Part shown: piece after piece, positions 850-15,689 of the stretch
How positions within the stretch are numbered: the first letter of the stretch is position 1
Layout of the letters: each line of letters opens with the position of its first letter
Source of the DNA: SAR202 cluster bacterium bin87
Lineage (GTDB): Bacteria; Chloroflexota; Dehalococcoidia; Lucifugimonadales; UBA3495
Assembly (NCBI GenBank): GCA_002238825.1
Contig: MPNC01000011.1
Coordinates: forward strand, 1 to 64,000
Direction of reading: 5' to 3'
DNA length: 64,000 nt
Translations under genes and position numbers: made by a program
The notes under the pieces: generated by a model
Seen by the model: only the letters and a program-made list of their open reading frames with translations
What the model was told of the DNA's origin: nothing
Databases searched by the model: none

Positions 850-1004
850 GGTCAGGCCGTTCCGATTGCGGTTCTGCCGTTGGTCGGCACGGCTATCAGC
901 CAACGCACGCTGCTGAGGCGGCGCGGCGTTGGCGCCGCTTGTTCCCATTCGTCACCAAGGCTGGGCAGCCCGTTGTCTTGGATCATCGACGCAATGCCAC
1001 CCGT

Positions 1005-1694
1005 TTATCGGGTCTCGGCTCCATCGGTGTGGTCTTCCAGCGGGTACCACCAGACAGTACCTCGGTCGATCAGTCCCTGTATGTTGTGGTCGTTGCGCGC
1101 GCTGGCGACAGCGGCGTGAGCCGGCTGTCCCGTGAACCGGGTGATGTAGTCGGCGTTGCGCCGAGCCCGGTCGGTGTCGCGCAAGTCCGCGGTGTACGAT
1201 ATCTCGACGGGGATGAATTCAAGGTTCCCTTCTTGGTCCGAAACCTCGAGTACCAGATCCGCGCGGGTGAAACTGATCAGATCGTTCTGGGCCACGGATC
1301 GAGCGCCGGGGTGTTGGCTCATCTGAACCAGGTCGGAGTTGCTGAGGACGCGGACCAGGGTGAAACCCATTGCCATGGCGATGGTGGCCGCTTCGTCAGC
1401 CACCTGGCTTTCCGAGAACCGGTTCTTGAAGTGGGACAGGTCGCCCTCTATGCGGTCGAAGCGAGAATCGACCCGCTGGTTGAACTGTTCCTGCTGGACG
1501 ATGAACCCGTCGACCCGCTGGTTGAACTGTTCCTGCTGGACGATGAACCCGTCGACGCGCGCGGCGAACGCGGCAAAGCGTTCCGGCAGAGTGATCAGTT
1601 CGTCGGTGAGTATCAGCCGTCGCGCCTGTTCGTAGAAGTGGGCATCTTCCCGGAGCAGGCGCAACAGGTCTTCGGAAGTGTTGATGGTCGTCAT
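1005..1694 (-). CDS. Coiled-coil hypothetical with PD-(D/E)XK-like C-terminal domain
   Basis: 229-residue soluble protein. Residues 1-45 are a helical N-terminus. Residues about 46-75 contain a perfect tandem duplication of a 14-residue unit (VDGFIVQQEQFNQR), followed by a coiled-coil stretch (RFDRIEGDLSHFKNRF). Residues about 95-220 look like the restriction-endonuclease-like fold found in many small Chloroflexota and cyanobacterial hypotheticals: an acidic strand (DLVLEVSDQ), then an E-x-S strand (FIPVEISYTADLRD) and a helical end. The Glu in VEIS would replace the usual E-x-K, so nuclease activity is uncertain. The function is unknown to me and the fold assignment is inference. It is transcribed alone, away from the response regulator gene. 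Confidence 0.65.
   Translation of the reverse strand: MTTINTSEDLLRLLREDAHFYEQARRLILTDELITLPERFAAFAARVDGFIVQQEQFNQRVDGFIVQQEQFNQRVDSRFDRIEGDLSHFKNRFSESQVADEAATIAMAMGFTLVRVLSNSDLVQMSQHPGARSVAQNDLISFTRADLVLEVSDQEGNLEFIPVEISYTADLRDTDRARRNADYITRFTGQPAHAAVASARNDHNIQGLIDRGTVWWYPLEDHTDGAETR
1470..1553. repeat. Perfect 42-bp tandem duplication inside a CDS
   Basis: Two identical 42-bp units (1470-1511 and 1512-1553) encode two copies of a 14-residue heptad-like coiled-coil unit (twice seven residues). Exact identity at the DNA level points to recent slippage. The length is a multiple of three, so the frame is kept. Confidence 0.9.
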
Positions 1695-1855
1695 GGCGGA
1701 TTCCCGATTGTCTTATCTTACTATGCGGATGCCGGGGTGGGAACTGTGGGCGGCGTTCGCGAGTTGACCCGATCATTGCATCCTCAACGGCGGACAGGCA
1801 CCGTGCGCCGCTGGTACTGCCTGGCGCGCCAATCCTTTAACCACGGCGCTGCACT

Positions 1856-1885
1856 CATCCTTTCGGTGGATTGGGGGTAAAGTCG
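1856..1885 (-). repeat. IS-end-like motif AATCCACCGAAAGGATG (copy 1)
   Basis: On the minus strand this reads AATCCACCGAAAGGATG, identical to the motif at 3671-3691 and close to the one at 6181-6200. Together the three look like terminal repeats of one insertion sequence family. Here the inside of the putative element points toward lower coordinates, where no transposase remains. Confidence 0.45.
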
Positions 1886-1928
1886 AGCAAAGTGATGGCA
1901 AAAAGCATAAGCCAGTCTCGATAAGGGA

Positions 1929-1958
1929 GCGATCATGCTCTCTTTCAAGCATGATCGC
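1929..1958. terminator. Perfect 11-bp hairpin
   Basis: GCGATCATGCT and AGCATGATCGC form a perfect 11-bp stem around an 8-nt loop (CTCTTTCA). No T tract follows on either strand, so a factor-independent terminator is not certain. The site lies between two divergent genes and could also be an operator. It is the only strong dyad in the 1695-2036 gap. Confidence 0.4.
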
Positions 1959-2036
1959 CCCGTGCTCGCCGGGGACCGGACGTGACGTCGTCATGGCAAC
2001 GGCAGGCAACCTGCCGGCGCGTCAGCGAGTGGTAAC

Positions 2037-2108
2037 ATGATTGAACGTTTCTGCACGACCAAAGATGACGATGTGCGCACATTGGAACGGCAAGGATTTG
2101 CAGTATGA
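2037..2108 (+). CDS. 23-residue leader ORF coupled to response regulator
   Basis: ATG at 2037 opens a 23-codon frame (MIERFCTTKDDDVRTLERQ...) whose TGA overlaps the ATG of the response regulator in an ATGA arrangement. It could be a leader peptide giving translational coupling. It could instead be the tail of a lost upstream gene: the sequence ERFCTTKD faintly recalls the F-box region of histidine kinases. No family assignment is possible. Confidence 0.3.
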   Translation: MIERFCTTKDDDVRTLERQGFAV

Positions 2109-2506
2109 GTGAAGCCGCGGAGGCCAGGAAGGTGCTGGTGGTGGACGACGAGCCGGACGTGGAGCCGATGTTCCGGCAGCAGATGCGTCGCGAGGTCAGG
2201 GCCGGTCGGTACGAGTTTCTGTTCGCCCGGTCGGGGCGGCACGCCCTTGAGGTGCTGGCAGAGCATCCGGACGTGAGGCTGGTCATCACCGACCTGAACA
2301 TGCCGGAAATGACCGGGTGGGAGTTGCTGGACGCGCTGGGGGAGCAATGGCCCGGGGTGCCGTCGATGGTGGTTTCGGCTTACGGGAATGAGGAGAACGC
2401 CAGGCGTGCCGAGGAGAGCGGCGCCCAGGGGTTCGTGGTGAAGCCGGTGAATTTCAGGGAACTGCGGGAGAAGGTGGCGGCTTCGCTGGAAGGCAGGGCC
2501 GACTGA
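2105..2506 (+). CDS. Single-domain response regulator (CheY-like receiver)
   Basis: 133-residue stand-alone receiver domain with no output domain. It has the acidic pair Asp14-Asp15, the phosphoacceptor Asp63 (VITDLNMPEMTG), the switch Ser91 (VVSAYG) and the conserved Lys113 followed by cis-Pro (VVKPV). It should accept phosphate from a histidine kinase and act by protein contact rather than DNA binding. No intact kinase lies in the window; the nearest trace is a C-terminal kinase fragment at 7733-7872. The ATG overlaps the stop of a 23-codon upstream ORF, suggesting coupled translation. The domain assignment is firm and the partner is unknown. Confidence 0.93.
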   Translation: MSEAAEARKVLVVDDEPDVEPMFRQQMRREVRAGRYEFLFARSGRHALEVLAEHPDVRLVITDLNMPEMTGWELLDALGEQWPGVPSMVVSAYGNEENARRAEESGAQGFVVKPVNFRELREKVAASLEGRAD

Positions 2507-2881
2507 GCGACCTGGTCAGGCCAGGCGCCCCGGTGAGAACCAGCGGGCAGGCGTCATTACCGCAACGCGCGGTCGCGTTCAACGACGAGCACGGCGCGCT
2601 GGGATCCGCAGCCCCGACACATCTCGCGGAACCGGTGGGCGTGCGGGTCAGGCAGGAATGGCGGGCTGCGATGCACGATGCGGATCACCGCATTGCGGCA
2701 CCTGCTGGCATGGTCGTGGACGCCGAAGCCGTTGGCGTTCTGAATGCTGACAAACCCGGTGGCCAGCATCCGGCGCGTTACACTCCGGACGGCTCGCGCA
2801 CGGTGTAAACTTGCGCCGCTGCAACTGATGTTGGGCGCTTATTTCCGTTTGCGTCGGACGGACGCACCGAGAGTTAGCAAG
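2507..2881. other. Gap without a convincing gene
   Basis: The 375 bp after the response regulator hold only short frames with no recognisable similarity and no clear ribosome binding site. I see no strong hairpin or repeat here. Confidence 0.5.
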
Positions 2882-3148
2882 ATGCCATATCTGGTTGGAC
2901 TGGCCATCGTGGTCGCAATCGCGTTGGGGTTCTGGTTCTATGGCAGGAGGAACGCCCGCCGCGCCAGAGGCAGCGACCTGACGGAACTGCGCCAGGCTGA
3001 GAACAAGGTCAAGGTGTCGGACCCAATCATGCGGAGGGACATCGACATCCTGGAGCGGTACGGCTCGGACCTGTTGCAGGACGCCATAGAACTCAGGCGC
3101 GCTCAATTGTTACGGGGCGGGCACCCGGACAGCCCGCCCGCCGAGTGA
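2882..3148 (+). CDS. Small single-pass membrane protein
   Basis: 88 residues from the ATG at 2882. Residues 3-20 (YLVGLAIVVAIALGFWFY) form one transmembrane helix, followed by a basic stop-transfer patch (GRRNARRARG) and a charged helical tail that may be a short coiled coil (ELRQAENKVKVSDPI). The predicted topology has the N-terminus out and the tail in the cytoplasm. The frame is open further upstream, but the added residues are implausible for a protein whose helix would otherwise sit at the extreme N-terminus. I do not recognise the family. Confidence 0.5.
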   Translation: MPYLVGLAIVVAIALGFWFYGRRNARRARGSDLTELRQAENKVKVSDPIMRRDIDILERYGSDLLQDAIELRRAQLLRGGHPDSPPAE

Positions 3149-3202
3149 GAGCGCCGCGACATTTGCCCGTTTAGAGCGCTGATCATCGCATTGCCTCAAC
3201 AA

Positions 3203-3277
3203 AACCGTTACCCAACGGAAATGGTTGCCCCAAATAAAACGTTACCCCCCGTGCAGTGTACCGCTGTGGTAACGTTT
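3203..3277. promoter_or_regulatory. Candidate operator: AAACGTTACC inverted repeat
   Basis: AAACGTTACC (3237-3246) and its exact reverse complement GGTAACGTTT (3268-3277) are spaced by 21 bp, or two helical turns. A third related half-site, AACCGTTACCC, lies at about 3203. The array sits 50-120 bp upstream of the gene starting at 3325 and could bind a dimeric repressor. No cognate regulator is identified. Confidence 0.4.
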
Positions 3278-3324
3278 GCCTGTCCTGAGCGCAACCGCGT
3301 TGCAAAAGAGTTGGAGGCGCACGT

Positions 3325-3657
3325 GTGGCAGAGATCAATTTTCAACAAGCATTCAACCAGATATTCGATGACGCCGACCTAAGCATCGATGAACAACTTG
3401 ACCACCTCATATCGTTGCTCAATGATTTGACACCCGCTTTGCTCGACACAACGTCCCGCTGGTCGGATGTGCAGATAGAAGAGGCGTTCCTGGAATTCGT
3501 TGATCCGGAAACCCACAATCAAGGAAGGCGAGAGACGCGATTTCTCATCGCTCTAGCCGGAGCCGCTGAGCTGAAAAGACGGGCTGACCGCGCGGGAGTG
3601 ACTGTGCTGGAGTACGCCCGTTTGATCAAAGTCGGGAGAGAGATGGACGACATATGA
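3325..3657 (+). CDS. Acidic hypothetical protein
   Basis: 110 residues starting at GTG 3325, preceded by a good Shine-Dalgarno (TTGGAGGCG). The N-terminal half is acidic and helical (DDADLSIDEQLDHLISLLNDL). The C-terminal half is more basic (RRETRFLIALAGAAELKRR) and ends in a helix with VLEYARLIKVG. There is no signal peptide and no membrane segment. The size, the acidic character and the candidate operator upstream would suit an antitoxin or a small regulator, but nothing in the sequence proves it and no partner gene follows. Confidence 0.55.
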   Translation: MAEINFQQAFNQIFDDADLSIDEQLDHLISLLNDLTPALLDTTSRWSDVQIEEAFLEFVDPETHNQGRRETRFLIALAGAAELKRRADRAGVTVLEYARLIKVGREMDDI

Positions 3658-3670
3658 CCCTACCACTTTT

Positions 3671-3691
3671 AGCCCTAATCCACCGAAAGGA
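3671..3691 (+). repeat. IS-end-like motif AATCCACCGAAAGGATG (copy 2)
   Basis: Same 17-mer as at 1856 but in the opposite orientation, with the inside pointing to higher coordinates where the IS1380 transposase remnant starts 250 bp later. It may be the 3'-side terminal repeat of that element. Confidence 0.45.
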
Positions 3692-3935
3692 TGTGGTCAC
3701 CTTGAGGAGGGAAGGGCAGAGACGTGCCGGATAGAGACGAGGTGGTCTTGACCCGCTCCAATCCGGCTGAGCACAGGGCGTGGTGACCACGCCAGGGGAA
3801 GGTGACCGCCGTCAGCGCTGGCGGTTGGGCAGATCGGCCGGTCAGGTTGCCGCCGGCGACACGCCGGTCCCGGCCTGTCGCAGATCCGGTCGGCGATTGG
3901 GTCGTGAGGTGGACCGGCAGACGCGGTGGGCGCGG

Positions 3936-4073
3936 TCAGGAAGGTAGGGGCAGGGCGCGCAGTTTGGCCAGGGCGTTGCTGAACTGGTGTCGCCAGGGCC
4001 AGTCCTGGGGCAAATGCAGGATGAGGCGGCGCGCTTTGCGGGCGAGCCGACCGGCTAGGGTGTCCCGCGTCAA
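3936..4073 (-). pseudogene. IS1380-family transposase, C-terminal remnant
   Basis: About 45 codons ending in TGA at 3936 read LTRDTLAGRLARKARRLILH, then LPQDWPWRHQFSNAL. This matches the typical C-terminus of IS1380 transposases, where a basic helix precedes a W-P-W motif. Nothing upstream in this frame encodes the DDE catalytic core, and the IstB pseudogene begins within 30 bp. The element has therefore lost more than 80 percent of its coding region. Confidence 0.6.
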
Positions 4074-4097
4074 CCATATTTGCCGATTTGGCGTCAA

Positions 4098-4840
4098 TCA
4101 GCTTTGCCGGTTCACCTCCTCGGCCGCAGCAGTCTCGCCGTGTTGCTGTGCTGCGTCAGTCCGGTAGCTGGGGACGTCAAACCCCAGGGTGACGGCGTGG
4201 TGGACGACCCGGTCGATGGCCGCGGCGGTGGCCATGGGGTTGGCGAAGATGCGTTCCCACTCGGAGAAGACCAGGTTGGACGTGATGCCCAGGGACCGGC
4301 GTTCGTAGCGTTCTGCGATGAGGGTGAAGAGGACCTCGGACTCCTCAGCGCCCTGGGGCAGGTAGCCGAGATCGTCCAGGAGCAGAAAGTCGAAGTTGTC
4401 CAGCTTGCGCAGTTGTCTGGGCAGGTCGAAGTCGCGTTTGGCGGCCAGCAGTTCCCCTGCTTCCGCAGGGGCGGGCTCTGCACCAGGCGGTAGGCCGGTG
4501 CGAAGAGGACGGAGTGTCCGGTTTCCACCAGGCGGTGTCCCAGGGCGCAGAGCGCGTGGGTCTTGCCGGTGCCGGAGAGCCCGAAGGCCAGCACGTTGAC
4601 GCCGTGTTCCACGAAGCTGCCCTGGGCCAGATGATCCAGTTGCTGCCGCAGTGCCAGGGGCATCCGGTGATGCTCGAAGGTTTCCCAGGTCTTGCCCGAG
4701 GGTAGCCGGGATGCCTGACGCAGCCGGTTGATGCGCCGGTGGCGGCGATCATCGGCCTCCTGCTCCAGTACCTCGAGGAAGGTGGACAGGGCGTCGCCGT
4801 GGCCAGCCTCGGTGAAACCCGCCACCGACTGGGCTCCCAT
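4098..4840 (-). pseudogene. istB: IS21-type helper ATPase IstB, frameshifted
   Basis: IstB-like ATPase (AAA+ helper of IS21 transposition, DnaC-related). The first part reads in one frame through the Walker A region (FGLSGTGKTHALCALG) and VLFAPAYRLVQ. The rest continues in another frame: LLAAKRDFDLP, the Walker B region LLLDDLGYLPQ, then ITSNLVFSEWERIF and AAAIDRVVHHAVTLGFDVPSYR, ending at 4098. The two frames are separated by a 23-nt insertion (4455-4477) that contains a perfect 7-bp palindrome. Since 23 is not a multiple of three, the gene is broken. No istA transposase partner is present, so this is an orphan remnant. Confidence 0.85.
4454..4471. repeat. Palindromic 23-nt insertion disrupting istB
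   Basis: CCCCTGC-TTCC-GCAGGGG is a perfect 7-bp stem with a 4-nt loop. Removing the 23 nt at 4455-4477 restores the istB reading frame (RLVQ followed by ELLAAKRD), so the hairpin-bearing segment is an insertion rather than part of the gene. Confidence 0.7.
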
Positions 4841-5130
4841 GGTGGGCAGCTCAGCAAGAGACAGCAGCCCCTGCCGAATTTCCCTAAAAATGATCGTGAA
4901 TAAATGGAACGGTCGCCACCGCCGCAATTCCTGTCTACCGCCGTGCCGGTTAACCCATCTCCCCACGGCTAAATATCATCCATTGTGGCCGGGTGAAGGA
5001 TGCAGACAGAAAGGCGCGTCTCCTGCGAAGCCGCGTCCGGCGCATCATCGCCGTTTGACCCCTTGACGCCGAACCAGTACGCTAAATGCGCATCTCCGGC
5101 TGGCATCAACCAGCGCCACAGGACGCCGAC

Positions 5131-5418
5131 ATGAACGAAACCAACCGCACCCTGCAGACCGTCGAGCGACTGATCCGCGCACGGTTCCACAAACAGTTCG
5201 GCGACCGCTACCGCATCGACAGTATCGTCGGCAGTTCCTTTGACCGAAGAGACCGCGAGGTCGGCTACATTACGGTCTACCTCACCCCCGGCGGCCCGCC
5301 ACTGGACCACCAGGAAACCAACAACTTCGACATCCTGCTCAAGGAGGAGCTGATTGGCCACGACATACGAGACTGGCCGGCCATCGCCTTCGTAGCCAAG
5401 GACCACGGCGTTTCGTGA
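5131..5418 (+). CDS. Small protein encoded upstream of HEPN gene, candidate antitoxin
   Basis: 95 residues from the ATG at 5131 (MNETNRTLQTVERL); an upstream ATG at 5086 is possible but adds an unlikely tail. It is an alpha/beta-looking protein with the conserved-looking stretch GYITVYLTPGGPPLDHQETN in its middle. Its stop overlaps the start of the following HEPN gene by 4 bp, so the two are almost certainly co-translated. It lacks the GSxxRG motif of MNT nucleotidyltransferases, so this is not a standard MNT-HEPN pair. The family is unknown to me; an antitoxin role is inferred only from size and coupling. Confidence 0.6.
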   Translation: MNETNRTLQTVERLIRARFHKQFGDRYRIDSIVGSSFDRRDREVGYITVYLTPGGPPLDHQETNNFDILLKEELIGHDIRDWPAIAFVAKDHGVS

Positions 5419-5912
5419 CCGCCTGCCCATTCCAGCCGCCGTCGCCACTGGACCCAACCGTCCTTATCGACAGCGCCGATCACGCCGTCAACAACGCGCC
5501 CGCCGGCGGCCCGTCGCGCGAAGTCATACACCGGGCGATCAGTACCGCCTACTACGCCGTTTTCCACGCCGTCAACGCCAGCAATGCCGACATCCAGCAC
5601 GGCACCCCCACGAACGCCGCCACCGCCAGCGCCTGGACCTCCACCTACCGACGGATGCGCCACGGCTTCGCAACCAGAAGTCTCCGCCGACACCTGTTCC
5701 ACCTGACCCAAGACGCACGGCTCCTAGCCAACCACTTCACTAACCTGAAGACCGCCCGAGAAACCGCAGACTACGACCCCAATCGGTTGCTGACCATCGG
5801 AGACGCTAACTACTGGATCGGAGAAGCCAGGGCCGCTCTGAGTGTCCTGCAGACCATGACTGCGACCGACCGTCAATCCTTTTGCAACATAACTCTGACT
5901 GGAACCCCGTAA
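5415..5912 (+). CDS. HEPN-domain protein, candidate RNase toxin
   Basis: 165 residues. Residues about 30-60 (SREVIHRAISTAYYAVFHAVN) match the hallmark first helix of HEPN domains. A second helix region carries R-S-L-R-R-H, which fits the R-x4-H metal-independent RNase motif of active HEPN toxins, and the C-terminus is a helix with Ala/Leu repeats (GEARAALSVLQ). The gene overlaps the preceding one (ATGA). HEPN proteins in such cassettes usually cleave RNA and are neutralised by their partner; that role here is inference. The flanking IS remnants suit a mobile toxin-antitoxin or defence module. Confidence 0.7.
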   Translation: MTACPFQPPSPLDPTVLIDSADHAVNNAPAGGPSREVIHRAISTAYYAVFHAVNASNADIQHGTPTNAATASAWTSTYRRMRHGFATRSLRRHLFHLTQDARLLANHFTNLKTARETADYDPNRLLTIGDANYWIGEARAALSVLQTMTATDRQSFCNITLTGTP

Positions 5913-6180
5913 TTTCTCCAACGGCGCAAGCCCCGACCACAGGAGAGCACATCGCCATCTTCCATCAAGCCGCTCAACGCCTAGCCCAGCCGCGCCAGGC
6001 TGGGCCCCTGACGGTCTCCGCCGACGCTCTGAGCTGAAAATCACTGCTAACGCCGCTACCACAGGCGGTCAGCATCCCCGTGGCGTGGCAGCCACACCCC
6101 ACATCCGTCCATTCCGTCGCATCAGGTATTCGCTGGCCCGTTTCCTGAACCTCATGTCTCAGCTGACCGCCGCTGCCGTA

Positions 6181-6200
6181 CCCCTTCGGTGGATTCGGGC
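6181..6200 (-). repeat. IS-end-like motif (copy 3)
   Basis: The minus strand reads GCCCGAATCCACCGAAGGGG, a variant of the motif at 1856 and 3671. It faces copy 2 in inverted orientation, so 3671-6200 could be a decayed element or composite carrying the istB remnant and the HEPN cassette. The spacing is 2.5 kb. Confidence 0.4.
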
Positions 6201-6290
6201 TTAGTCGCGGTAGTTGTCGAGTTCGGTCACCGCGTCTTTCTCGAGCAGCTCTTCAAGGACCGTCCGTCCGCGCGTGATGCTACAAACGAA
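6201..6290 (-). pseudogene. Possible C-terminal remnant of an unknown gene
   Basis: The last 27 codons of a minus-strand frame read TRGRTVLEELLEKDAVTELD and end in TAA at 6201. They look coding (acidic amphipathic helix), whereas the rest of the open frame does not. This is probably the tail of a lost gene, and it abuts the IS-end-like motif. No family assignment. Confidence 0.25.
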
Positions 6291-6342
6291 TCGGCCGACG
6301 GTCGCTAACGTCGTTGGTCTTTCGTCCACGGGTTGTTTGTGT

Positions 6343-6369
6343 TGGCAGAGTTTGGGCCGAACTCTGCCA
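6343..6369. repeat. TGGCAGAGTT inverted repeat near recombinase
   Basis: Perfect 10-bp inverted repeat with a 7-bp spacer (TGGGCCG). Further single half-sites occur at about 6426 (CTGGCAGAGTT) and 8017 (AACTCTGCCA). The arm and spacer sizes resemble the core site of a tyrosine recombinase, and a recombinase remnant begins 90 bp downstream; the link is inference. Confidence 0.45.
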
Positions 6370-6458
6370 CTTTCGGCCACCGACGCCGGGCGCCGTTCGG
6401 GGCAATTGGTGACCGCCGGCCCCTTTCTGGCAGAGTTCGTCAGGTCTACTATGCCACC

Positions 6459-6692
6459 ATGGACATGCCCCACTACTGGACCGCCGACCAGGTTCAGCGC
6501 ATCCAGGAGGCGCTGGCCGCCCACAACCGCCACCGGGCCCGCACCGCCGCCCTCATCATGTGGCGCACCGGCCTGCGGGTCTCCGAGGTCCTCGAGCTCG
6601 AGTGGCGGGACCTCTATTACGCCGGCGAGCCGGCGACGCTGCTGGTCCGGCGCTCAAAGACCTGCCGGGCGCGGACGGTGCGGCTGCACCCG
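6459..6692 (+). pseudogene. Tyrosine recombinase (phage integrase), truncated
   Basis: About 78 codons read MDMPHYWTADQVQRIQ, then TAALIMWRTGLRVSEVLELEW, then RSKTCRARTVRLHP. This is the start of a tyrosine recombinase catalytic domain: the TGLRvSEvleLeW block carries the first catalytic Arg, and the K-beta hairpin (VRRSKTCRARTV) carries the Lys. Homology stops at about 6692, where the 3' end of an ISNCY transposase begins on the other strand. The second Arg, the His residues and the nucleophilic Tyr are therefore missing and the gene is dead. Confidence 0.75.
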
Positions 6693-7676
6693 TCCCGTCC
6701 CACCTTGCGGGTGTCCTTGAAGCACAGGATCTCGGAGAGGGTCAGGTCTGGGTCCACCGGACGGTAGGCCGGTTCCGGATGCTCGGGTTGCACGGCGAAC
6801 CGGGCGTTGTAGCGGGGCAGGAAGTCCTGTAGCACCGCCGTGGTCTGATCCATGGTCCTGGCATCAGCCAGGCGTAGTTCGGTTACCAGCCGGTCCTGGA
6901 AGGTCCCCGCCGCCCGTTCCACCCGGCCCTTGGCCTGCGGGCGAGCGAGCGAAGATCTGCCGGATGCCCAACTCCTGCAATGACCTCGTGAACTGGGTGG
7001 CTTCCGCCGCGGTCTCCGGCTTTCGGGCGTTGTGCTTGAACACGGCGTGGCGGTCGCTGTACCGCGCCAATGGAATGCCCCAGCCCTCGATCAGGCTCTC
7101 CAGCAGGGTGAAATAGCCAGCAGTGGTCTCGCTGGTGCAAAACACGGCGTTGACCACGGCGCTGGTGGCATCGTCCACCGCCAGTAGCAGCGCGAATTGG
7201 GGACTCCGATCCTCCAACCAGGCATGATGACTGCCGTCCAGCTGGATCAGCATCCCCGCCTGGGGCATCCGCTGGCGGCGAAAACGGTGCTGCGGAGAGC
7301 GCCGACTGCGGGGACTGCCGATGCCCGCCCTGGTGAGAATGCGCCGCACCGTGGGCCGGCTCAGGTCGATGCCTTCTCGCTCACTGAGCAGCTCGGTGAG
7401 GTGGGTGTGGTTGGCGCCCTCGTAACGCTCCGTCGCCAGTCGCACCACGGCGGCGGCCTCGCCTGGCGCAGTGGCGTTGTGGGGACGGCGGCCCCGGTTG
7501 CCGTGGGCCAGCGCGGCGGTGCCACGCTCTCGGTAGGCGGCCAGCATCCGTCGGGCATGGCGCTGGGTCACGCCCAGCAACTCGGCGGCATCGGCGATGG
7601 GGACCTGGTATTCCAAAACGGAGTTGAGCACGGAGAGTCTGGCTAGTTCTTTTTGGTTCAACGTAACGTCCTTCAT
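6693..7676 (-). pseudogene. ISNCY-family transposase, frameshifted and 3'-truncated
   Basis: The N-terminal helix-turn-helix (VPIADAAELLGVTQRHARRML) is followed by an AHGNRGRRPHNATAP linker and an integrase-core DDE domain: LIQLDGSHHAW with the first Asp and AVDDATSAVV with the second. The frame breaks at about 6952, where one extra C turns the expected SPQAKGRVERAAGTFQD into SPAGQG. The downstream frame (6922 to 6693) carries the catalytic Glu region and LRLADARTMDQTT. The last 50-60 codons after FKDTRKVGRD are missing where it meets the recombinase remnant. The single frameshift could be genuine programmed or mutational loss, but the 3' truncation makes it a pseudogene. Confidence 0.8.
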
Positions 7677-7732
7677 CAGGACATTTTCGCTGACCAGTTA
7701 GCTGATGACAAAATCGTAGAACAGCAACAGAT

Positions 7733-7872
7733 TTACAATGAAGGCGGGTCAGCGGGGGCGCCCTCGACCAGCGGCAGAGTGAAGATGAACCGGGCACCAG
7801 GCCCGGCCCGTCGCTCTCGCCCCGGATGCGGTCCCGTGGGCCTCCACGATCCCCGAACTCAGTCGACCGCCG
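7733..7872 (-). pseudogene. Histidine kinase, extreme C-terminal fragment
   Basis: Reading across two small frame breaks gives LSSGIVEAHG, then RIRGESDGPGL, then GARFIFTLPLVEGAPADPPSL and a stop at 7733. This is the G2 box and last strand of a HATPase_c domain in a hybrid or sensor histidine kinase. Upstream (above 7872) the homology stops, so the dimerisation helix, N box and G1 box are gone. The ISNCY element lies directly beyond its stop codon. The orphan response regulator at 2105 may once have had such a partner, but that is speculation. Confidence 0.6.
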
Positions 7873-8221
7873 GAGAAATGGCGCTGCCGCCGGTCAATCC
7901 AAAGTATTGAGTTTCCCGTAACATTCTCCGGTGAGGCAACAGGAATCGGCAAGAATGGTTGACGCGGGACAAGCGTGCCGGGGTGTAGAATTTCCAGCAA
8001 CGTAAACGCGACCAACGAACTCTGCCACCTCGGTTGCGCGGTTCGACATGAAATTGCGGCGCGAGCCATGGGAGGCCGTATTGGCTCCGCTGTGAAGCAC
8101 TGCTGTCCGTGCATCAACCACTCGCGCCGCTGGTAAGTCTGATCGAGGGCGTGTCCACACTGGTGGTATTCCCGGCCTCTATTGGTTTCACCGGATAGAC
8201 TGACGCTGTATCCTCACCGCC
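7873..8221. other. Gap before channel gene
   Basis: 350 bp without a recognisable gene. It includes an isolated AACTCTGCCA half-site at about 8017 matching the palindrome at 6343. The 5' region of the channel gene has no strong sigma-70 promoter that I can point to. Confidence 0.45.
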
Positions 8222-9055
8222 ATGAAAAATCTGGCTAACTTCGCATCCAAGCCCGTCAACGCCACATGGTTCGAATACTTCATCATCGGCGTCATCATTG
8301 TCAACGGTATCATACTGGGGCTAGAGACTTCATCCGTCATCAGCCGTCTCTACGGCGACTGGCTATACTTGGGCAACGACATTGCCCTGTGGGTGTTCAT
8401 CGTCGAGGCCGCGCTCAAGATGCTGGCCCTGTGGCCCCGGCCACAGCGATACTTCCGCGACGGGTGGAATGTTTTTGACTTTCTGATCATCGTTTTCGCC
8501 TTGGTGCCCGCCACCGGCCAGTTTGCGATGATCGCTCGGCTGGCGCGGCTGCTGCGGGTAGTGCGGCTCATCTCGGCAATCCGGGACCTGCGCCTAATCG
8601 TCGCCGCCCTGGTGCGTTCCATTCCCAGCGTGGGCCACGTCATGATGCTGATGAGCATAGTGGCGTACATCTACGCGATAATGGGACACCAACTATTCCA
8701 CGAGCACGACCCGGAACACTGGGGCACCCTCGGAAGATCTCTGCTGACCCTGTTCAACATCACCACCTTGGACAACTGGACCCAGATCATGAACACCGCT
8801 ATGGAGCATCACCCGTGGTCATGGGTCTATTTCGTCAGTTTCGTAGTGGTCGGAACGTTCGTTGTCATTAATCTGTTTATTGCCATCATAATCAACAGCC
8901 TGGACGAGGCCAAAGCGGAACGCGCCTCCGAGGTGGACGGGCCGGTTTCACAAGCGGAACTGTTGGCAGAAATCCGAGCCACTCAGGAAGCCCTCAAAAG
9001 GCTGGAGGACAAACTTCGGCCAAGCGACGCACAAAGCGACCATCTTGCCGATTGA
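8222..9055 (+). CDS. One-domain voltage-gated cation channel (BacNav/NaChBac type)
   Basis: 277-residue six-helix channel subunit, expected to assemble as a tetramer in the inner membrane. S1 is about 17-36, S2 52-70, S3 82-96. The S4 voltage sensor has Arg106, 109, 112 and 115 at every third residue, with Arg121 and 124 beyond. S5 is about 135-158. The pore helix LLTLFNIT is followed by the selectivity filter Thr182-Leu-Asp184-Asn-Trp186, and S6 is 199-226 (NLFIAIIINSLDE). Residues 243-266 form the C-terminal tetrameric coiled coil typical of the family (ELLAEIRATQEALKRLEDKL). Classic sodium channels have TLESW; Asp at this position and Asn in place of Ser suggest altered or relaxed ion selectivity. 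The family assignment is firm; the selectivity is inference. Confidence 0.93.
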   Translation: MKNLANFASKPVNATWFEYFIIGVIIVNGIILGLETSSVISRLYGDWLYLGNDIALWVFIVEAALKMLALWPRPQRYFRDGWNVFDFLIIVFALVPATGQFAMIARLARLLRVVRLISAIRDLRLIVAALVRSIPSVGHVMMLMSIVAYIYAIMGHQLFHEHDPEHWGTLGRSLLTLFNITTLDNWTQIMNTAMEHHPWSWVYFVSFVVVGTFVVINLFIAIIINSLDEAKAERASEVDGPVSQAELLAEIRATQEALKRLEDKLRPSDAQSDHLAD

Positions 9056-9111
9056 GAAAATGCTCCACAATGGAAATGACCACTGCGGACGGTCGAATTG
9101 TTGTTCGGCGC

Positions 9112-11937
9112 TCAGTTTCGGTTGATAGTGCCGTCGCGCTGGCAAACGGTACGTAAGGCGCATGAATTGCACACCTTTATAGGAGGGCGGGTGCGTACCG
9201 TGAAATCTTCCGCCGTGATGGCTTGGGTGACACCGGCAGCCCACTGGGTGGCTCCCAAGATCCGCTCCGGAGTGGGGATGAAAGATTCGATGGCCTCTGC
9301 TGGATTTGTTTCCGCCGTCCAATAAATGTGGGTGCGCGAAACAGGACGCCCGAATTGTTGTTCAGCCATGTGGGCGTAGAGCATCAACTGCCGCTCATAT
9401 TCCGTTCGGCGCTGCGCAGTCCAGGTTGACCGATTTCCGGTTTTGAAATCAGTGACCTCCAGGGCGCCGTCATTCTCCGTGAGCAGATCGGTCCTGCCCC
9501 GCAGCACAAACGCTCCTTCGTCGGTCCGAAGGTCGACCTCGCTGGCGACGATGGAGGGAAACACGCCTGCGTTCGCCCCTACGTATCGGGACACCTGGCG
9601 ATAAGCCGCCTCAACCGCGTTGCGGCTCTCGGCCGGGCCCAGCAACGACAACGCAGTTCTGCTCTGCTCGGTGACAGTCTGCCTCAGCGGTATCTGGTCC
9701 GGTGAAACGCCTCGGAGCACAGCCCGATTTACAACGTCGATACTGCCGTGAACGATATCGCCCACGAGACCGTGGGAAATAACAGGCTCTACGAACCTGT
9801 GCTTCCGAAAATACTGATACCGCCTCGGGCATGATCCGTATTTGGCCAAGTCCGCAGTCACGGAGTAGACCGGAGGTGGCGGTGGCGACGCCTTTCGGGG
9901 AAATCGCTGTTGCGCCAAAGTCCGGTGCGTGTTGGCTGACCACCGTGGCAGCGATTTCCACAGTTGTTCCAGGGTCGGGGACGGGTTGCGGTTGCCACAT
10001 AAAACCAGCAGTCGCTCAGCCCTGGTGAAAGCCACATACTTGCACCGCGCCGGTTCCATCGCGTCCGGTCCGGCACCGGCGCGCCAACTCTGAGCGGATG
10101 GGGAATCAAATACGTCTGAGCCGCTTTTTCGTGTGACTGGATCGTGATTCAATGAACCCACGGCGACCACAGGGAATTCCCGTCCTTTGCTCTGGTGAAC
10201 GGTCAAGATTTGCGCGTGTCCCCCCGCCGTTCGCTCGGTTTCGGCAACGCGATGCCATCCCCCGTTCTGGTAGAGCAACGGTAGAAATCTCTCAAAGAAG
10301 TCGTACCTCAAGGCCTGTACCCGTTCTCCGCAAATTTGCCGGTGCCCGTAATGCACATGAAAGGCCTCGACGCAGCGAGACCAAAGCGCCAGACTTGCCG
10401 CGGTTTTCGGATCGTCCAGCATCGTCGAAAAAGGCTCGACCGATAGGAGGCTATAGCAGTAGTCGTGCAGGTTGCGCGCCAAGGTGTAGCCCCGTTGGGC
10501 AGCCTCACGAATTTGTTGGGGCCATCGGAGCAACGCACGGCCTAGCACGGATCTATCATCAATGCCGGCCCGAACTCGTTCGGCCGCGTCCTGAAGACAA
10601 CGATGGAACGAACCGTCCACTGCGCGGGAGCCATCGCCCCGATGGGAAAAATCACCGAAAACGATGGCAAGACAACCGATCATGAGCCTGATTTCAGGTC
10701 TATCGAAGAGCCCACCTTGGCGACCCACAACGTGGGGGACCCCGTGCCGTTGGAATGCCTCAGTGTATGGCCGACAAATGTCGCCCTTGGCAGTGTGGAG
10801 CAGCAACGCCACCTGGTCATAGTCTTCGATGACCCCATCCGCTTTCAATCTAACGAACAACCGGGCTAGCTGGTCGGCTTCGTCTTCTGGCGTCCGGCCA
10901 TCCACGGCCAACACGCTGGGGTACTCTGGCTCAACATGTTCACCGGGAGACCGCAATGCCGCGGCGCACCGGCCAACCGAATCGCCGGTCGTTTTCTCGA
11001 TCCACTCCGACGCCGTTTCTGCGATTCCTTTATCCGAGCGGAAATTCTCGGAAAGGCGAAGGGTCCGGCAATCTGGAACGGTGGTGGCGAACGAGGCCAT
11101 GTTGCCCGGCAGGGCGCCGCGGAAACTATAGATGCTCTGGTTGTCGTCGCCGAAAACCACCAAATTTCCGCTGCGTGTGGTCCATCGCCGGAAGATTTTT
11201 TCCTGCAGCGGGCTCGTATCCTGGTACTCGTCCACCATCACCTGAGAATGTTCATTGATGATTTCGTCGGAGTCAGGGTCGGAGAGCAGGTCGTGAGCCC
11301 ACCGCAATAAGTGACAAAAATCCGCGAAGTGCGCCGCCTTCAGAACAGCCTCATATTCAAGGTAAACGCTGGCCAGGACGCTGCGGAAGGGGTCGCGGCT
11401 ACCAACCATGTCGGTTGGGTTCAAACACTGGTCCACCATATGGTCGAAGGCCTGGAGCAACCCATTGGTGGTATGGGGAGTCGATCGCCAACGGCTGGAT
11501 AGAATCTCCCGTTGTCTCTTGGTCGTGATGTTAGTCAAATGGCTGTCCAGAAATGCCGACCTGCCGAGGTCGTCCAACACGCTGAACCGGGGAGAGATAA
11601 TGTGCTGACCATACGCCCGCAGCAGGTTTTGGCAAAAGCCGTGGATCGTATTGATCTGAACCTGCGACCAGTCGGCATGCGGCCGGACGGCCCGCGCCGC
11701 GTCGATGAAACGCTTCTCAAGGTCCAGAGCCGCATCGCGCGAAAAGGTGGTAATGACAAGGTTTTCTGGACGCACGTGTTCTGAGGCGAGGAGGTTGATA
11801 GCCCTGAGAATTACGGTCTGGGTCTTTCCGGAGCCAGGACCTGCTTTCACCGCTAGCGGACCGGAAACGTGCTCGACCACCGCCTGCTGCTCGTTGGTGA
11901 GATGTGCGCAAAGTCGCTCTATTTCTGAAACGGTCAT
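9112..11937 (-). CDS. UvrD/Rep-like helicase with C-terminal Fe-S PD-(D/E)XK nuclease
   Basis: 941-residue SF1A DNA helicase-nuclease. It has a Q motif near 17, Walker A 32-39 (AGPGSGKT), Walker B 233-240 (VMVDEYQD), motif III about 263-275 (GDDNQSIYSFRGA), motif IV LSENFRSD, motif V (TVHQSKGREFPVV) and motif VI (YVAFTRAERLL). The C-terminal third starts with a lone Cys (KYGSCPRRYQYF) and carries a RecB-type nuclease core (RTDLLTENDGALEVTDFKTG). It ends with Cys923-x2-Cys926-x5-Cys932, so four Cys would hold a 4Fe-4S cluster as in AddB and Cas4. It should unwind and resect DNA ends. It is the only gene between the channel gene and a broken second channel copy, in the opposite orientation. A house-keeping repair role or a defence role are both possible. 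Confidence 0.92.
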   Translation of the reverse strand: MTVSEIERLCAHLTNEQQAVVEHVSGPLAVKAGPGSGKTQTVILRAINLLASEHVRPENLVITTFSRDAALDLEKRFIDAARAVRPHADWSQVQINTIHGFCQNLLRAYGQHIISPRFSVLDDLGRSAFLDSHLTNITTKRQREILSSRWRSTPHTTNGLLQAFDHMVDQCLNPTDMVGSRDPFRSVLASVYLEYEAVLKAAHFADFCHLLRWAHDLLSDPDSDEIINEHSQVMVDEYQDTSPLQEKIFRRWTTRSGNLVVFGDDNQSIYSFRGALPGNMASFATTVPDCRTLRLSENFRSDKGIAETASEWIEKTTGDSVGRCAAALRSPGEHVEPEYPSVLAVDGRTPEDEADQLARLFVRLKADGVIEDYDQVALLLHTAKGDICRPYTEAFQRHGVPHVVGRQGGLFDRPEIRLMIGCLAIVFGDFSHRGDGSRAVDGSFHRCLQDAAERVRAGIDDRSVLGRALLRWPQQIREAAQRGYTLARNLHDYCYSLLSVEPFSTMLDDPKTAASLALWSRCVEAFHVHYGHRQICGERVQALRYDFFERFLPLLYQNGGWHRVAETERTAGGHAQILTVHQSKGREFPVVAVGSLNHDPVTRKSGSDVFDSPSAQSWRAGAGPDAMEPARCKYVAFTRAERLLVLCGNRNPSPTLEQLWKSLPRWSANTHRTLAQQRFPRKASPPPPPVYSVTADLAKYGSCPRRYQYFRKHRFVEPVISHGLVGDIVHGSIDVVNRAVLRGVSPDQIPLRQTVTEQSRTALSLLGPAESRNAVEAAYRQVSRYVGANAGVFPSIVASEVDLRTDEGAFVLRGRTDLLTENDGALEVTDFKTGNRSTWTAQRRTEYERQLMLYAHMAEQQFGRPVSRTHIYWTAETNPAEAIESFIPTPERILGATQWAAGVTQAITAEDFTVRTRPPIKVCNSCALRTVCQRDGTINRN

Positions 11938-12531
11938 GTTGTTTTCCTCGCATTGATGCGGTTGTCACGGTCGCGAGAGAATGTTGGCTTCGAGCTGGGC
12001 TCGGGACGAAAAGATGGATAGGTTTACGGGTGCTGACCGGTATCAGGGGATCGGTTTGTCACTCAAGCAGTTGTCACAAGAGGAGGGCGGAAAAATCCCC
12101 TATAATAGTGGTCCTGCGTGAAGTATCACCAGTTGTGATCGGAATGCGCAGTGCTCTGCGAATTCGACCTGAGGGAGTTGGTCCGGTGAAGCGCACATAG
12201 TACGGGTGCCGGTATTGCGTTGTCCGTGACGAGTTTGGAGCGGTATATCGTGGTGCTGTTTCACCGAGGGTTCCCTATTACAGTCGGCGTAAATCGTACC
12301 CGCTGGCGGCCTGTGCAGAGCGTCGCCGGACCCCATCTGCTCAGCGGCGTACTTATCCACTGCCTGACCCTTGATCTGTTTCTGTATCCACGGAGGGTGC
12401 GATCCTTTTGGGCGATTGGGGTTCGTTCCGTCGCCGTCTGTCCGTTGAGGACTGTTGCCGTAGCGAGAGCTGCCGCAGGCCCGGTATCGGCCCGCTCCAG
12501 AGAGCTACGTTCAAAGTATGACGATTTAATA
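11938..12531. other. Gap upstream of helicase and channel remnant
   Basis: No gene recognised. It holds a consensus TATAAT at 12101 on the plus strand. The open frame starting at 12220 resembles a channel only from 12532 onward. Confidence 0.45.
12077..12106 (+). promoter_or_regulatory. Possible sigma-70 promoter (perfect -10)
   Basis: A perfect TATAAT lies at 12101-12106 in an AT-richer patch (AAAAATCCCCTATAATAG). There is no good -35 at 16-18 bp; TTGTCA at 12071-12076 is 24 bp upstream, which is too far. It would read toward the channel remnant. Confidence 0.25.
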
Positions 12532-12714
12532 GCGACATTCATCGCGATCATCATCAACAGCCTGGACGAGACGAAGCGAGGCAACCTGCAGGAAGGGCTC
12601 GAGCCGGTCTCCCGCCAGGACCTGGTGCGCGAGTTGCGGGCTACGCAGGAGACGTTGAAGCGACTGGAAGAGCGGCTGAACGCGGACGACGCCGAGGAAG
12701 AGGACCGTCGCTAG
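12532..12714 (+). pseudogene. Truncated voltage-gated channel copy (S6 end and coiled coil)
   Basis: Sixty codons read TFIAIIINSLDETKRGNLQ and then SRQDLVRELRATQETLKRLEERL, clearly homologous to residues 218-266 of the channel at 8222 (LFIAIIINSLDEAK, ELLAEIRATQEALKRLEDKL). The region upstream in the same frame (12220-12531) bears no resemblance to S1-S5. DNA-level divergence from the first copy is substantial, so this is an old paralog or a separately acquired gene rather than a recent duplication. Without voltage sensor and pore it cannot form a channel. Confidence 0.75.
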
Positions 12715-12753
12715 CGGCGTCGTGCTCGCACGAACCGGGTTTGCGGCGGGGAA

Positions 12754-12867
12754 CGTCAGAATCAGGATTTGCGGGATTTTATGATTGGACAGGACTGCAG
12801 TGCTCTATCACCGTACGGTCCCAATCCTGATAATCCCCAAATCTTGAAAATCCTGATTTTGGCGAAT
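12754..12867. repeat. GAATCAGGATT inverted repeat (copy 1)
   Basis: The arms CGTCAGAATCAGGATT and AATCCTGATTTTGGCG bracket inner arms built from GATTGG and CCAATCCTGATAATCC, giving an approximately 114-bp imperfect palindrome. A shorter relative lies at 39022-39075. It probably forms a long hairpin between genes; widespread repeats of this kind are known from many bacterial genomes. Confidence 0.65.
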
Positions 12868-12943
12868 TACGCATGAGCGACGCCGAGCCGTTTCGCACGG
12901 GTGGTATCATTGGCCCGAACCACCCGGAGATGGAGGGATTGAC

Positions 12944-13960
12944 GTGCCTTTTGGAGACAATGACTGGCTGGCCCTGACCCAGGAAGACCCGATAGAGCCT
13001 GACATCCCGCTGTGCGACCCGCACCATCACTTTTGGGACCGGCGCATGCCGAGCGTGCCCTACCAGCGTTACCTGCTCCACGAACTGATGGCCGACCTTG
13101 ATTCGGGCCACAACGTGCGGTCCACCGTTTTTGTTGAGGCGAGGTCCATGTATCGCGCCGACGGTCCCGCGGAACTGCAACCGGTGGGCGAGGTCGAGTT
13201 CGTGCAGGGGTTGGCGGCAGCCAGCGCCAGCGGCACCTACGGAGAGGCCCGGGCCGCGGCCGCCATCGTCGGCCACGCCGACCTCAAGCTCGGGGATGAC
13301 GTGGCCCGGGTGCTGGAAGCGCTGCAGGCGGCCAGCCCGAACCGGTTCAAGGGCATCCGGCACAACGTGACCTGGAGTCCCGACCCGCTTATAGAGAACC
13401 GGGACACCCAGGGGATCATGTCCAACGAGACCTTCCGCGCCGGAGCCCGGGCGCTGGCCCGAATGGGTCTTTCGTTGGACGTGATGCTGTCGTTTCCCCA
13501 GCTGAACGAACTTGCCGAGTTCGCGCGGGCGGTGCCCGAGGTGTCCATCATCCTGAATCATGTGGGCGGAGTCAGCCGCACGGGTATCTACGCCGGCAAG
13601 GACGACGAGGTCATCCCGGCCTGGCGGGACGGCATCCAAGCCGTGGCCGAGTGTCCCAACGTCACGTGCAAACTGGGCGGATTGGGTATGCCGCGCTGGG
13701 GCTTCCGCTGGCACGCGCGCGCCGAGCCCATCGGCTCTGAGGAGTTGGCGGAGGCCATGACCCCGTGGCTGACCCATTGCATTGAGCAGTTCGGCCCGGA
13801 TCGCTGCATGTTCGAGAGCAACTTCCCGCCGGACAAGGTCTCCTTCTCGTACAACGTGATGTACAACGCCTTCAAGCGGCTATCCCGGAAATACAGCGCG
13901 AGCGAGCGGGCAGATCTGCTCCATGACACGGCGGTTCGGGTGTACCGCATCTCGGCTTAA
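12944..13960 (+). CDS. Amidohydrolase_2 family metal-dependent hydrolase (twin A)
   Basis: 338-residue TIM-barrel hydrolase of the Amidohydro_2 (PF04909-type) family. The N-terminal metal motif is CDPHHHFWD at about 24-32. The barrel strands carry STVFVEAR, FKGIRHNV, SIILNHVGG (His at strand 6) and the final Asp/Glu region CMFESNFPPDK. Members hydrolyse or decarboxylate lactones and aromatic acids. The start is GTG 12944, with GGAGATGGAGG upstream. The GMC oxidoreductase follows after 17 bp, so the two likely form an operon: oxidation of an alcohol to a lactone or acid, then hydrolysis. A close twin of identical length lies at 45108. Confidence 0.88.
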   Translation: MPFGDNDWLALTQEDPIEPDIPLCDPHHHFWDRRMPSVPYQRYLLHELMADLDSGHNVRSTVFVEARSMYRADGPAELQPVGEVEFVQGLAAASASGTYGEARAAAAIVGHADLKLGDDVARVLEALQAASPNRFKGIRHNVTWSPDPLIENRDTQGIMSNETFRAGARALARMGLSLDVMLSFPQLNELAEFARAVPEVSIILNHVGGVSRTGIYAGKDDEVIPAWRDGIQAVAECPNVTCKLGGLGMPRWGFRWHARAEPIGSEELAEAMTPWLTHCIEQFGPDRCMFESNFPPDKVSFSYNVMYNAFKRLSRKYSASERADLLHDTAVRVYRISA

Positions 13961-13977
13961 CTCGAGGGCATGACGGC

Positions 13978-15504
13978 ATGAAATACGACGTGATCATCGT
14001 GGGCGCCGGTTCGGCCGGCTGCGTTCTCGCCAACCGGTTGTCGGAGGATCCCAGCCGGTCGGTGCTGCTCCTGGAGGCCGGGCCGGATTACACCATCGAC
14101 CAGCTGCCTGACGAGTTGAAATATGACATGAACCAGGCCGCGTCCGAGGAGGGCGCGGCGCACAACTGGTCGTTTGTCGGCCAGTCAACGCCACAGAATC
14201 CGCGTCCCATCCACGTCGCGCGGGGCAAGGTCACCGGCGGCAGCAGCGCCATCAACCACCAGATCGTGCTGCGCGGAGCGCCGGAGGATTTCGACGGATG
14301 GGCTGCGTCGGGCAACGACGAGTGGAGTTACCAGAAAACGCTGCCCTACTTCCGCCGTCTGGAAAACGACGCCGACATCCGCGACGATTTCCACGGAACC
14401 GACGGCCCGATACCCGTGTGGCGGCACGCCCGCGAGGACTGGCTGCCCCTGCACGCCGCCTTCTACCAGGCCTGCCGGGACCTCGGCTTCCCGGACGACC
14501 CCGACATGAACCACCCCGACGCCACCGGCGTGGGCCAGGTGCCCCTGAATAACCCCGGCGGCGTCCGGATGAGCACCGCCATCACCTACCTGGACGCCTG
14601 CCGGCACCGCCTCAACCTCACCATCCGGGCCAACGTGACGGTGCGGCGCATCGTGTTTGATGGCAAGCGCGCCACCGGAGTGGAGGTGGAAAGCGGCGGT
14701 GACGCGTTCGTCGTCGAAGGAGACGAGATCATCCTCAGCGCCGGAGCGATTGCCTCGCCGCAACTGCTGCTCCTGTCGGGGGTTGGCGCGGCCGAGCAGT
14801 TGCGCCCGTTGGGCATCGAGACGGTCCACGACCTGCCCGGCGTGGGTCGGAGCATGAAAAACCACCCGTCGGTGTCCATTGTGTACCGTTCGCAGCCCGA
14901 CCACCACCTGGCTCCCGACGCGCCGCGCAACCAGGTGGGGCTGCGGTTCACCGCCGAGGGATCGGCTGACCGCAATGACATCCAGGTCCAGCCCACGACG
15001 TCGTATCCCGAGAGCCGGGAAGCGCCCAATATCCGCGTGGGATGCCGGCTGGAATACCCCTACAGCGAAGGCGTGCTGAAACTGGCGTCTGCGGACGTAT
15101 CGATGCAGCCGGACCTGGACTTCCGTTTCCTGACTGATCCTCGGGACACTGACCGGTTCCGCGACGCGGTGCGCCGCACCGTGGCGATTTTCGAGCATCC
15201 AGCTTTCAACGACCTGCTGGCGGAACGCCTGTCGCCGACTGACGCGGACCTGGCGGACGACGCTTCCCTGGACGCATGGCTGCAGCAGAGCGCCGGCATC
15301 GCCGGTCACACTTCGGTCACCTGCAAGATGGGTCCGGCGGCGGATCCAACGGCCGTGGTGGACCAGTATTGCAAGGTGCACGGCCTGCGGAACCTGCGGG
15401 TGGTTGACGCGTCGGTCATGCCCGACATAGTCCGGGCCAACACCAACGCCACCATCATAATGATGGCCGAGCGCGCGGCCGACTTCATCAAAGAAGGAAG
15501 TTAG
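13978..15504 (+). CDS. GMC-family FAD oxidoreductase (choline/alcohol dehydrogenase-like)
   Basis: 508 residues. The N-terminal FAD-binding Rossmann motif is GAGSAGCVLANRLSE (8-22), with the ELLEAGP-type Glu in LLLEAGPDY. GMC signature 1 is GKVTGGSSAINHQIVLRG and signature 2 is GAIASPQLLLLSGVG. The C-terminal substrate domain has HTSVTCKMG, and the final block NTNATIIMMAERAAD supplies the catalytic His/Asn region. It oxidises a primary or secondary alcohol using FAD; choline is only one of many possible substrates. It lies 17 bp downstream of an amidohydrolase on the same strand. A dispersed repeat begins just after its stop codon. Confidence 0.92.
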   Translation: MKYDVIIVGAGSAGCVLANRLSEDPSRSVLLLEAGPDYTIDQLPDELKYDMNQAASEEGAAHNWSFVGQSTPQNPRPIHVARGKVTGGSSAINHQIVLRGAPEDFDGWAASGNDEWSYQKTLPYFRRLENDADIRDDFHGTDGPIPVWRHAREDWLPLHAAFYQACRDLGFPDDPDMNHPDATGVGQVPLNNPGGVRMSTAITYLDACRHRLNLTIRANVTVRRIVFDGKRATGVEVESGGDAFVVEGDEIILSAGAIASPQLLLLSGVGAAEQLRPLGIETVHDLPGVGRSMKNHPSVSIVYRSQPDHHLAPDAPRNQVGLRFTAEGSADRNDIQVQPTTSYPESREAPNIRVGCRLEYPYSEGVLKLASADVSMQPDLDFRFLTDPRDTDRFRDAVRRTVAIFEHPAFNDLLAERLSPTDADLADDASLDAWLQQSAGIAGHTSVTCKMGPAADPTAVVDQYCKVHGLRNLRVVDASVMPDIVRANTNATIIMMAERAADFIKEGS

Positions 15505-15635
15505 TTACCCACTTCGCCTGGGCTGTCATTGCGAGCGAAGCGCGGCAATCTCGTTGCCGCCAGGAACGCGGTTGCGGCAACGAGATCGCCACGTCGCTGC
15601 GTTCCTCGCGGAGACAGGACGGGTACGAATGAGAG
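15505..15635. repeat. MITE-like inverted repeat, copy A
   Basis: The core GTCATTGCGAGCGAAGCGCGG (15525 on) pairs with the complement of CGAGATCGCCACGTCGCTGC and GTTCCTCGCGGAGAC. The outer arms TTACCCACTT and GGGTACGAATGAGAG extend it to about 130 bp. Four more full copies lie at about 29041, 44889, 51097 and 54953. Confidence 0.8.
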
Positions 15636-15689
15636 ATTGTGCCCGGTTGCACGCGCCGCGCAAGCCGGTGGGACGGAGCGGGCCGCTGG

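Follow-up and report, generated by a model that had tools for sequence, protein, structure and literature searches.

The locus described here raises a double question: which ions pass through a one-domain voltage-gated cation channel with the selectivity filter TLDNWTQ, and how such a channel comes to lie on mobile DNA that ends inside another channel gene. The channel, P0001, is encoded in the window, that is, the whole stretch of DNA analysed, 64,000 nucleotides of contig C19 of a SAR202 cluster bacterium. The explanation that we favour, and consider probable, is that P0001 is a weakly selective channel of the lineage with NavPp-type and CavMr-type filters, sitting on a recombinase-integrated island that split the resident channel gene.

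The reading frame of P0001 runs exactly from 8222 to 9055 (+), from an ATG start through 277 codons to a stop, and its product matches Pfam Ion_trans with an E-value of 7.2e-51. The features of a one-domain prokaryotic voltage-gated channel can be recognized throughout: a six-helix Ion_trans region, S4 arginines R106, R109, R112 and R115, spaced three apart (codons at 8537-8566, +) and followed by R121 and R124, and a P1-filter-P2 arrangement around T182-L-D-N-W-T-Q188 (8765-8785, +), which contains Asp184, Asn185 and W186. Since the four S4 arginines are invariant across the 45 rows of the channel alignment, and dN/dS against the nearest relative, in genome G008, is 0.10 (a value showing constraint over the pair, not over the island branch alone), P0001 is not a chance reading frame. 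In the AlphaFold model (mean pLDDT 78, pTM 0.56; an earlier one, with 22 rows and pLDDT 64, was set aside) helices 170-181 and 186-196 flank the filter, and a C-terminal helix spans residues 244-268. The top Foldseek match is CavAb 5klb (E 9.8e-14, TM 0.62, rmsd 6.1, 35% identity); CavAb (TLDDWSD) and NavAb (TLESWSM), the top matches, share the fold of P0001 at about 35% identity. An earlier note on this DNA had claimed a prokaryotic voltage-gated channel with four regularly spaced S4 arginines and an aspartate at filter position 3, and all of this is borne out by the exact frame, the Ion_trans and fold matches, the arginines listed above and D184. Its intact C-terminal coiled coil is plausible only, as a putative assignment of the modelled helix (8951-9025, +) from heptad a/d positions L247, I251, T254, L258, L261 and L265. 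NCBIfam and PADLOC assigned P0001 to no family, and promoter and terminator scans around the channel were uninformative.

Channel matches were found in 21 of 49 other genomes of the family and in 10 of the 13 others of the genus, each with a single copy. The genome under study holds three: P0001, a match of 221 residues on contig C43 and, at 12529-12702 of the window, a tail of 58 residues. The scan of named genomes was confined to the best 80 of 423 candidates, and the filter counts therefore describe near relatives; these 80 belong to Chloroflexota (Dehalococcoidia, SAR202), Nitrospirota, Nitrospinota and some Pseudomonadota, and all are MAGs except Mariprofundus micogutta. At filter positions 3 and 4, 83 distinct channels carry ED (42), EG (27), DG (9), DN (4) or DD (1), and both TLEDWTD and TLEGWVD, the exact filters of NavPp and CavMr (PMC7041947), occur among them. 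TLDNW is found in P0001 and in genomes G008, G015 and G007. It requires two changes on the 83-row tree, a figure unchanged with starred branches and over the bootstrap 5-95% range, and may have arisen by two gains, or by one gain with a loss. That tree omits 19 duplicates, L024 and L025 (both parts of a single G035 frame) and L003 (a tail only), and keeps the truncated resident copy L002, whose foreign residues at the end lengthen its branch. An amide (Q or N) occupies filter position 7 in 4/4 DN rows versus 3/9 DG rows. The filter charge per tetramer is 12 for TLEDWTD, 8 for TLEGWTE and TLDGWTE, and 4 for TLDNWTQ and TLDNWTN.

The TLESW channels of Leisingera, NavMs and NavAb are split from the P0001 side by a branch with 100/99 support in a 36-row tree with long outgroup branches, made of 32 rows hand-picked from the 83 and four others, CavMr, NavPp and Bacillus-group sequences being left out; among the added rows, the branch of Pseudoalteromonas TFEDWTD is very long. 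Neither channel tree includes the plasmid channels of Streptomyces and Microvirga. P0001 thus fails as a canonical BacNav channel of the NavAb/NavMs kind on two counts, a filter that reads TLDNW, not TLESW, and its separate side of the tree; the same split, with the shared filters, places it, by sequence, in the lineage with NavPp-type and CavMr-type filters. The earlier note had taken it for an altered TLESW sodium channel, with Glu changed to Asp and Ser to Asn. This reading is contradicted by the tree and by the filters of the closest relatives, TLDGW in the genus, then TLEGW and TLEDW: the informative substitutions are Glu3 to Asp, in the genus, and Gly4 to Asn, in some of its members, rather than Ser to Asn. 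No paper in the literature searched mentions TLDNW, and hence none describes such a channel as an ordinary sodium channel; a search linking Chloroflexi with prokaryotic sodium channels and filters found no paper.

Some distant sequences deserve mention. Other Asp3 filters occur in Chloroflexota outside the genus clade, TLDDWAK (L064), which resembles the engineered CavAb filter, and TFDGWTD (L113). In a Streptomyces fungicidicus plasmid ion transporter (L186 97-1068), TLDGIG replaces the Trp-containing filter. The viral-classed contig IMGVR_UViG_2693429859_000001 (39,736 bp) carries a 39% channel relative at 8001-8750, near one contig end. A phage origin of P0001 was rejected, with no match among 50,697 phage records, and so was a plasmid origin: 39 plasmid records match, all below 60% identity, with 31.1-37.6% among the 30 matches listed.

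P0001 would function as a homotetrameric channel opened by depolarisation: movement of the S4 arginines would open the S6 gate, and ions would cross a ring formed by four Asp184 residues, over which lie four Asn185. From published filter rules, Na+, K+ and Ca2+ are predicted to pass with weak discrimination, as expected since the filter is without Gly4 and without an acid at position 7, so that the ring carries four charges. A review sorts one-domain filters with Asp3 by the residue above it: a neutral non-Gly residue puts them in the non-selective class, and Gly in the Ca2+-selective one (PMC10120453). A comparable experimental case is NsvBa of Bacillus alcalophilus (TLDSWGS), which shows no discrimination among Na+, Ca2+ and K+ and which the single change D186E renders Na+-selective (PMC4225499). 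NsvBa and P0001 are alike in having Asp3 (D184) and a neutral non-Gly residue 4 (N185); they differ in that NsvBa belongs to the Bacillus Nav group, with GxG after the Trp, where P0001 has W186-T-Q-I.

Two other ion preferences have to be weighed. P0001 might be Na+-selective, since it resembles TLESW channels in having four charges with a neutral polar residue at position 4: NavAb (TLESWSM) likewise has four filter charges, and the same review describes one-domain channels as sodium-permeable where residue 4 is neither Gly nor Asp (PMC10120453). We think this unlikely, as Asp3 is tied to lost Na+ selectivity both in NsvBa and in NaChBac E192D (PMC4225499). Alternatively, Asp184 and the backbone might suffice for calcium selectivity, Asn185 simply replacing Gly, and the island copy would then repeat the resident function. 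CavAb as top Foldseek match speaks for this, as do the best phmmer whole-sequence scores, to four-domain human CaV3 channels (sums over domains), and the finding that TLDDW(S/A)D filters turned NavAb and NaChBac Ca2+-selective (PMC7041947). Those filters, however, carry 12 charges per tetramer against 4 in P0001. In CavMr, moreover, replacing Gly4 lowers Ca2+ selectivity (PCa/PNa 11.9 for G4S and 7.73 for G4D), V6T lowers it too, and all these variants are K+ and Cs+ permeable (PMC7041947); high Ca2+ selectivity of P0001 is therefore unlikely, and we regard a calcium-selective P0001 as rather improbable.

A weakly discriminating P0001, the preferred reading, shares with CavMr and NavPp the one-domain plan, and their exact filters in its near relatives, but differs in having Asp3, Asn4 and no acid at position 7. 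A CavMr-type calcium channel needs Gly at position 4, where P0001 has Asn185, and CavMr is described with an extra-loop disulfide (PMC10120453), whereas P0001 is without any cysteine. The TLDGW channels of the genus, including the resident gene considered below, are predicted by the same filter rules to be of the calcium type; they resemble the CatSper3 (TVDGWTD) and CatSper4 (TQDGWVD) filters (PMC7041947). The label is uncertain because their position-6 Thr should lower Ca2+ selectivity, as V6T does. Filter rules are, in addition, not always transferable between backbones, since NavPp given TLEDWSD or TLEDWAD was still no calcium channel (PMC7041947). The unusual ion preference proposed in the earlier note is accordingly a reasonable prediction from the Asp3 filter rules, and its idea of calcium permeability is possible, provided that it is not taken to mean high Ca2+ selectivity.

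A second copy of the channel gene, which the earlier note overlooked, lies in the window in broken form. The resident orthologue, with filter TLDGWTE, is cut within S6: its first part is on contig C43 and its C-terminal part, recognized by synteny with G016, at 12538-12714 (+) of the window. C43:62654-81973 and C19:12538-48312 are broadly collinear with one region of G016, running in opposite directions from a single point, and the two flanks overlap at the G016 break point by 11 bp, corresponding to 12538-12548 of the window. The break falls in the S6 codons for INLFIAIII, where the C43 part continues into foreign codons. Joining the flanks gives a frame of 276 residues with no stop, kept wherever the join is placed within the 11 bp, and identical to the G010, G012, G014 and G016 genes at 254-258 of 276 positions (92.0-93.5%). 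Over the 221 codons of the broken part, dN/dS against three orthologues is 0.066-0.10, versus 0.071-0.090 among those three; the gene looks freshly broken. On the inner side of the break, positions 1-12537 up to the contig end are not collinear with G016, unlike 12538-48312, and P0001 lies on this side, 3.5 kb from the break.

The assembly is a draft of 67 contigs with a contamination estimate of 4.83%, and the resident halves sit on two contigs; the split could thus be an assembly artefact or a mixture of strains, P0001 being an ordinary second copy. This we consider very improbable, because the break falls at identical codons in the two halves, which overlap by 11 bp, and recombinase genes lead up to and into it; both contigs align on their outer sides with a single G016 region, and a search of the assembly yielded no intact TLDGW gene.

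The recombinases in question are on C43, where gene calls from a custom script give two full-length large serine recombinases, C43:59452-61002, leading into the break, and C43:61125-62672, running 19 bases past it, with a truncated third gene (C43:58191-59102) adjoining them. The two full-length proteins are 34-36% identical over their full length, and the second has Resolvase, Recombinase and zinc-ribbon domains. The layout of the three tandem genes (C43:58191-62672) presumably resembles that of ccrA/ccrB pairs. The C43:61125-62672 product resembles CcrB and XisF far below cut-offs, with a best score of 97 bits (CcrB); as the NCBIfam cut-off is 700-900, it is a similar enzyme and not a member of SCC CcrA/B/C. 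For C43:59452-61002 the NCBIfam comparison covered the first 183 residues only. Recombinase relatives with 32-39% identity were found in 10 of 392 other genomes of the class (E 1e-60, scoring no more than three candidates in each) and, at E 1e-30, in 4 of 48 others of the family. No recurrent targeting of channel genes was seen among the class and family genomes, a weak test, and no serine recombinase relative was confirmed among the viral contigs searched.

Recombinase domains at the edge, an 11-bp shared core and a target frame restored on joining are the marks of an integrated element, and the IS-rich island would have entered by large-serine-recombinase integration, probably catalysed by the C43 enzymes, into the S6 codons of the resident TLDGWTE gene. 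This would have cut the gene in two and left P0001 as the sole intact copy. The sigK element is reportedly a known serine-recombinase insertion disrupting a gene. Like large-serine-recombinase elements in coding genes, the island has the recombinase at its edge, lies within a gene and allows the frame to be restored; what sets it apart is an ion channel gene as target and the presence, on the element side, of an intact homologue of that gene. It is well known that serine-recombinase insertions can disrupt genes (PMC10083194); a narrow literature search found no report of an element that contains a homologue of its own target gene.

Excision of the skin element restores sigK, and by analogy the insertion might be a reversible switch, excision of which restores the resident channel. 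The joined flanks do give an intact frame, a C43 recombinase resembles XisF and CcrB, if far below cut-offs, and the broken part looks fresh, with its dN/dS of 0.066-0.10. Any precise integration, however, restores an intact frame on joining; neither an empty site nor an excised form was found in the assembly, and no other genome with this element was found among 392 of the class and 48 of the family. A switch is thus, in our opinion, improbable.

The cargo of the island is mixed. Between P0001 and the island edge, domain search identified a fusion of a UvrD-type helicase with a PD-(D/E)XK nuclease (9112-11937, -; 941 aa). Among the 48 other genomes of the family, three have matches to it, all of them partial (34-36% identity, covering roughly the first 400 residues), and no relatives were found elsewhere at E 1e-60; since it also matches PADLOC GajB-type helicase models, the gene may serve in defence or repair. 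On the other side of P0001 are an ORF of 270 aa (6864-7676, -) matching helix-turn-helix families only, which we take to be transposase-like, a fragment with a tyrosine recombinase (Phage_integrase) match (6333-6767, +; E 7.9e-10), two overlapping small ORFs of 110 and 165 aa (5086-5912, +) whose coding signal is good but which fall in no Pfam or NCBIfam family, and an IstB_IS21 ATPase-like ORF (4112-4966, -), an IS21 remnant by its domain match. The C43 island side, including 191-16148, contains IS elements and an AbiEi/AbiEii pair, NYN, NurA and AAA proteins; this toxin-antitoxin pair and its companions resemble defence cargo. None of 59 other relatives has the sequence of the island edge (12400-12537). 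The assembly does not contain the middle part of the island, and window 1-157 and C43:1-500 are repeated elsewhere in the genome; if contiguous, the island would exceed 75 kb.

As for where the island channel came from, P0001 shares 84% identity with the single channel of G008, and the pair has 100/99 support in the 83-row tree. In the rpoB tree the genome under study falls inside clade A (G010, G012, G014, G016) with 99/97 support, adjoining G016 (92/88). The closest kin of P0001 is thus the gene of another species. G008 itself is placed by rpoB as the sister of clade A (94/92), whereas its channel goes with clade B (98/90); since G008 is discordant too, the trees fit either a transfer or an old duplication followed by losses. 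No shared cassette accompanies the pair, only the channel gene itself matching. At the equivalent of the insertion site, P0001 differs from the resident site at 5 of 24 bases, all synonymous, compared with 1-3 of 24 in ten other genus genomes and 2-7 of 24 in four outside; protective recoding was considered and rejected, general divergence explaining the five differences.

Taken at face value, the island apparently put out of action a channel predicted to be of the calcium type, and itself carries one tuned differently, which may functionally replace the lost one. A stronger version holds that the island rewrites the ion selectivity of its host, breaking a calcium-type channel and supplying a weakly selective homologue with a synonymously different site, so that selectivity is swapped horizontally and perhaps reversibly; this we put forward only tentatively, as a doubtful possibility.

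Which filter residues set the preference for Na+ or Ca2+ is an old question, and the clade offers a natural filter series on related backbones, TLEDWTD, TLEGWTE, TLDGWTE and TLDNWTQ/N, with charges of 12, 8, 8 and 4. Within it, P0001 and the intact TLDGWTE orthologue of G016 form a pair for patch-clamp comparison, differing at filter positions 4 and 7 and elsewhere. The ordinary part of the finding is a natural filter variant in a known kind of channel; the unusual part is an island that apparently breaks a resident homologue while carrying its own. If a true swap has taken place, mobile DNA would carry and exchange bacterial ion preference, and this could throw light on the role of such channels in their hosts.
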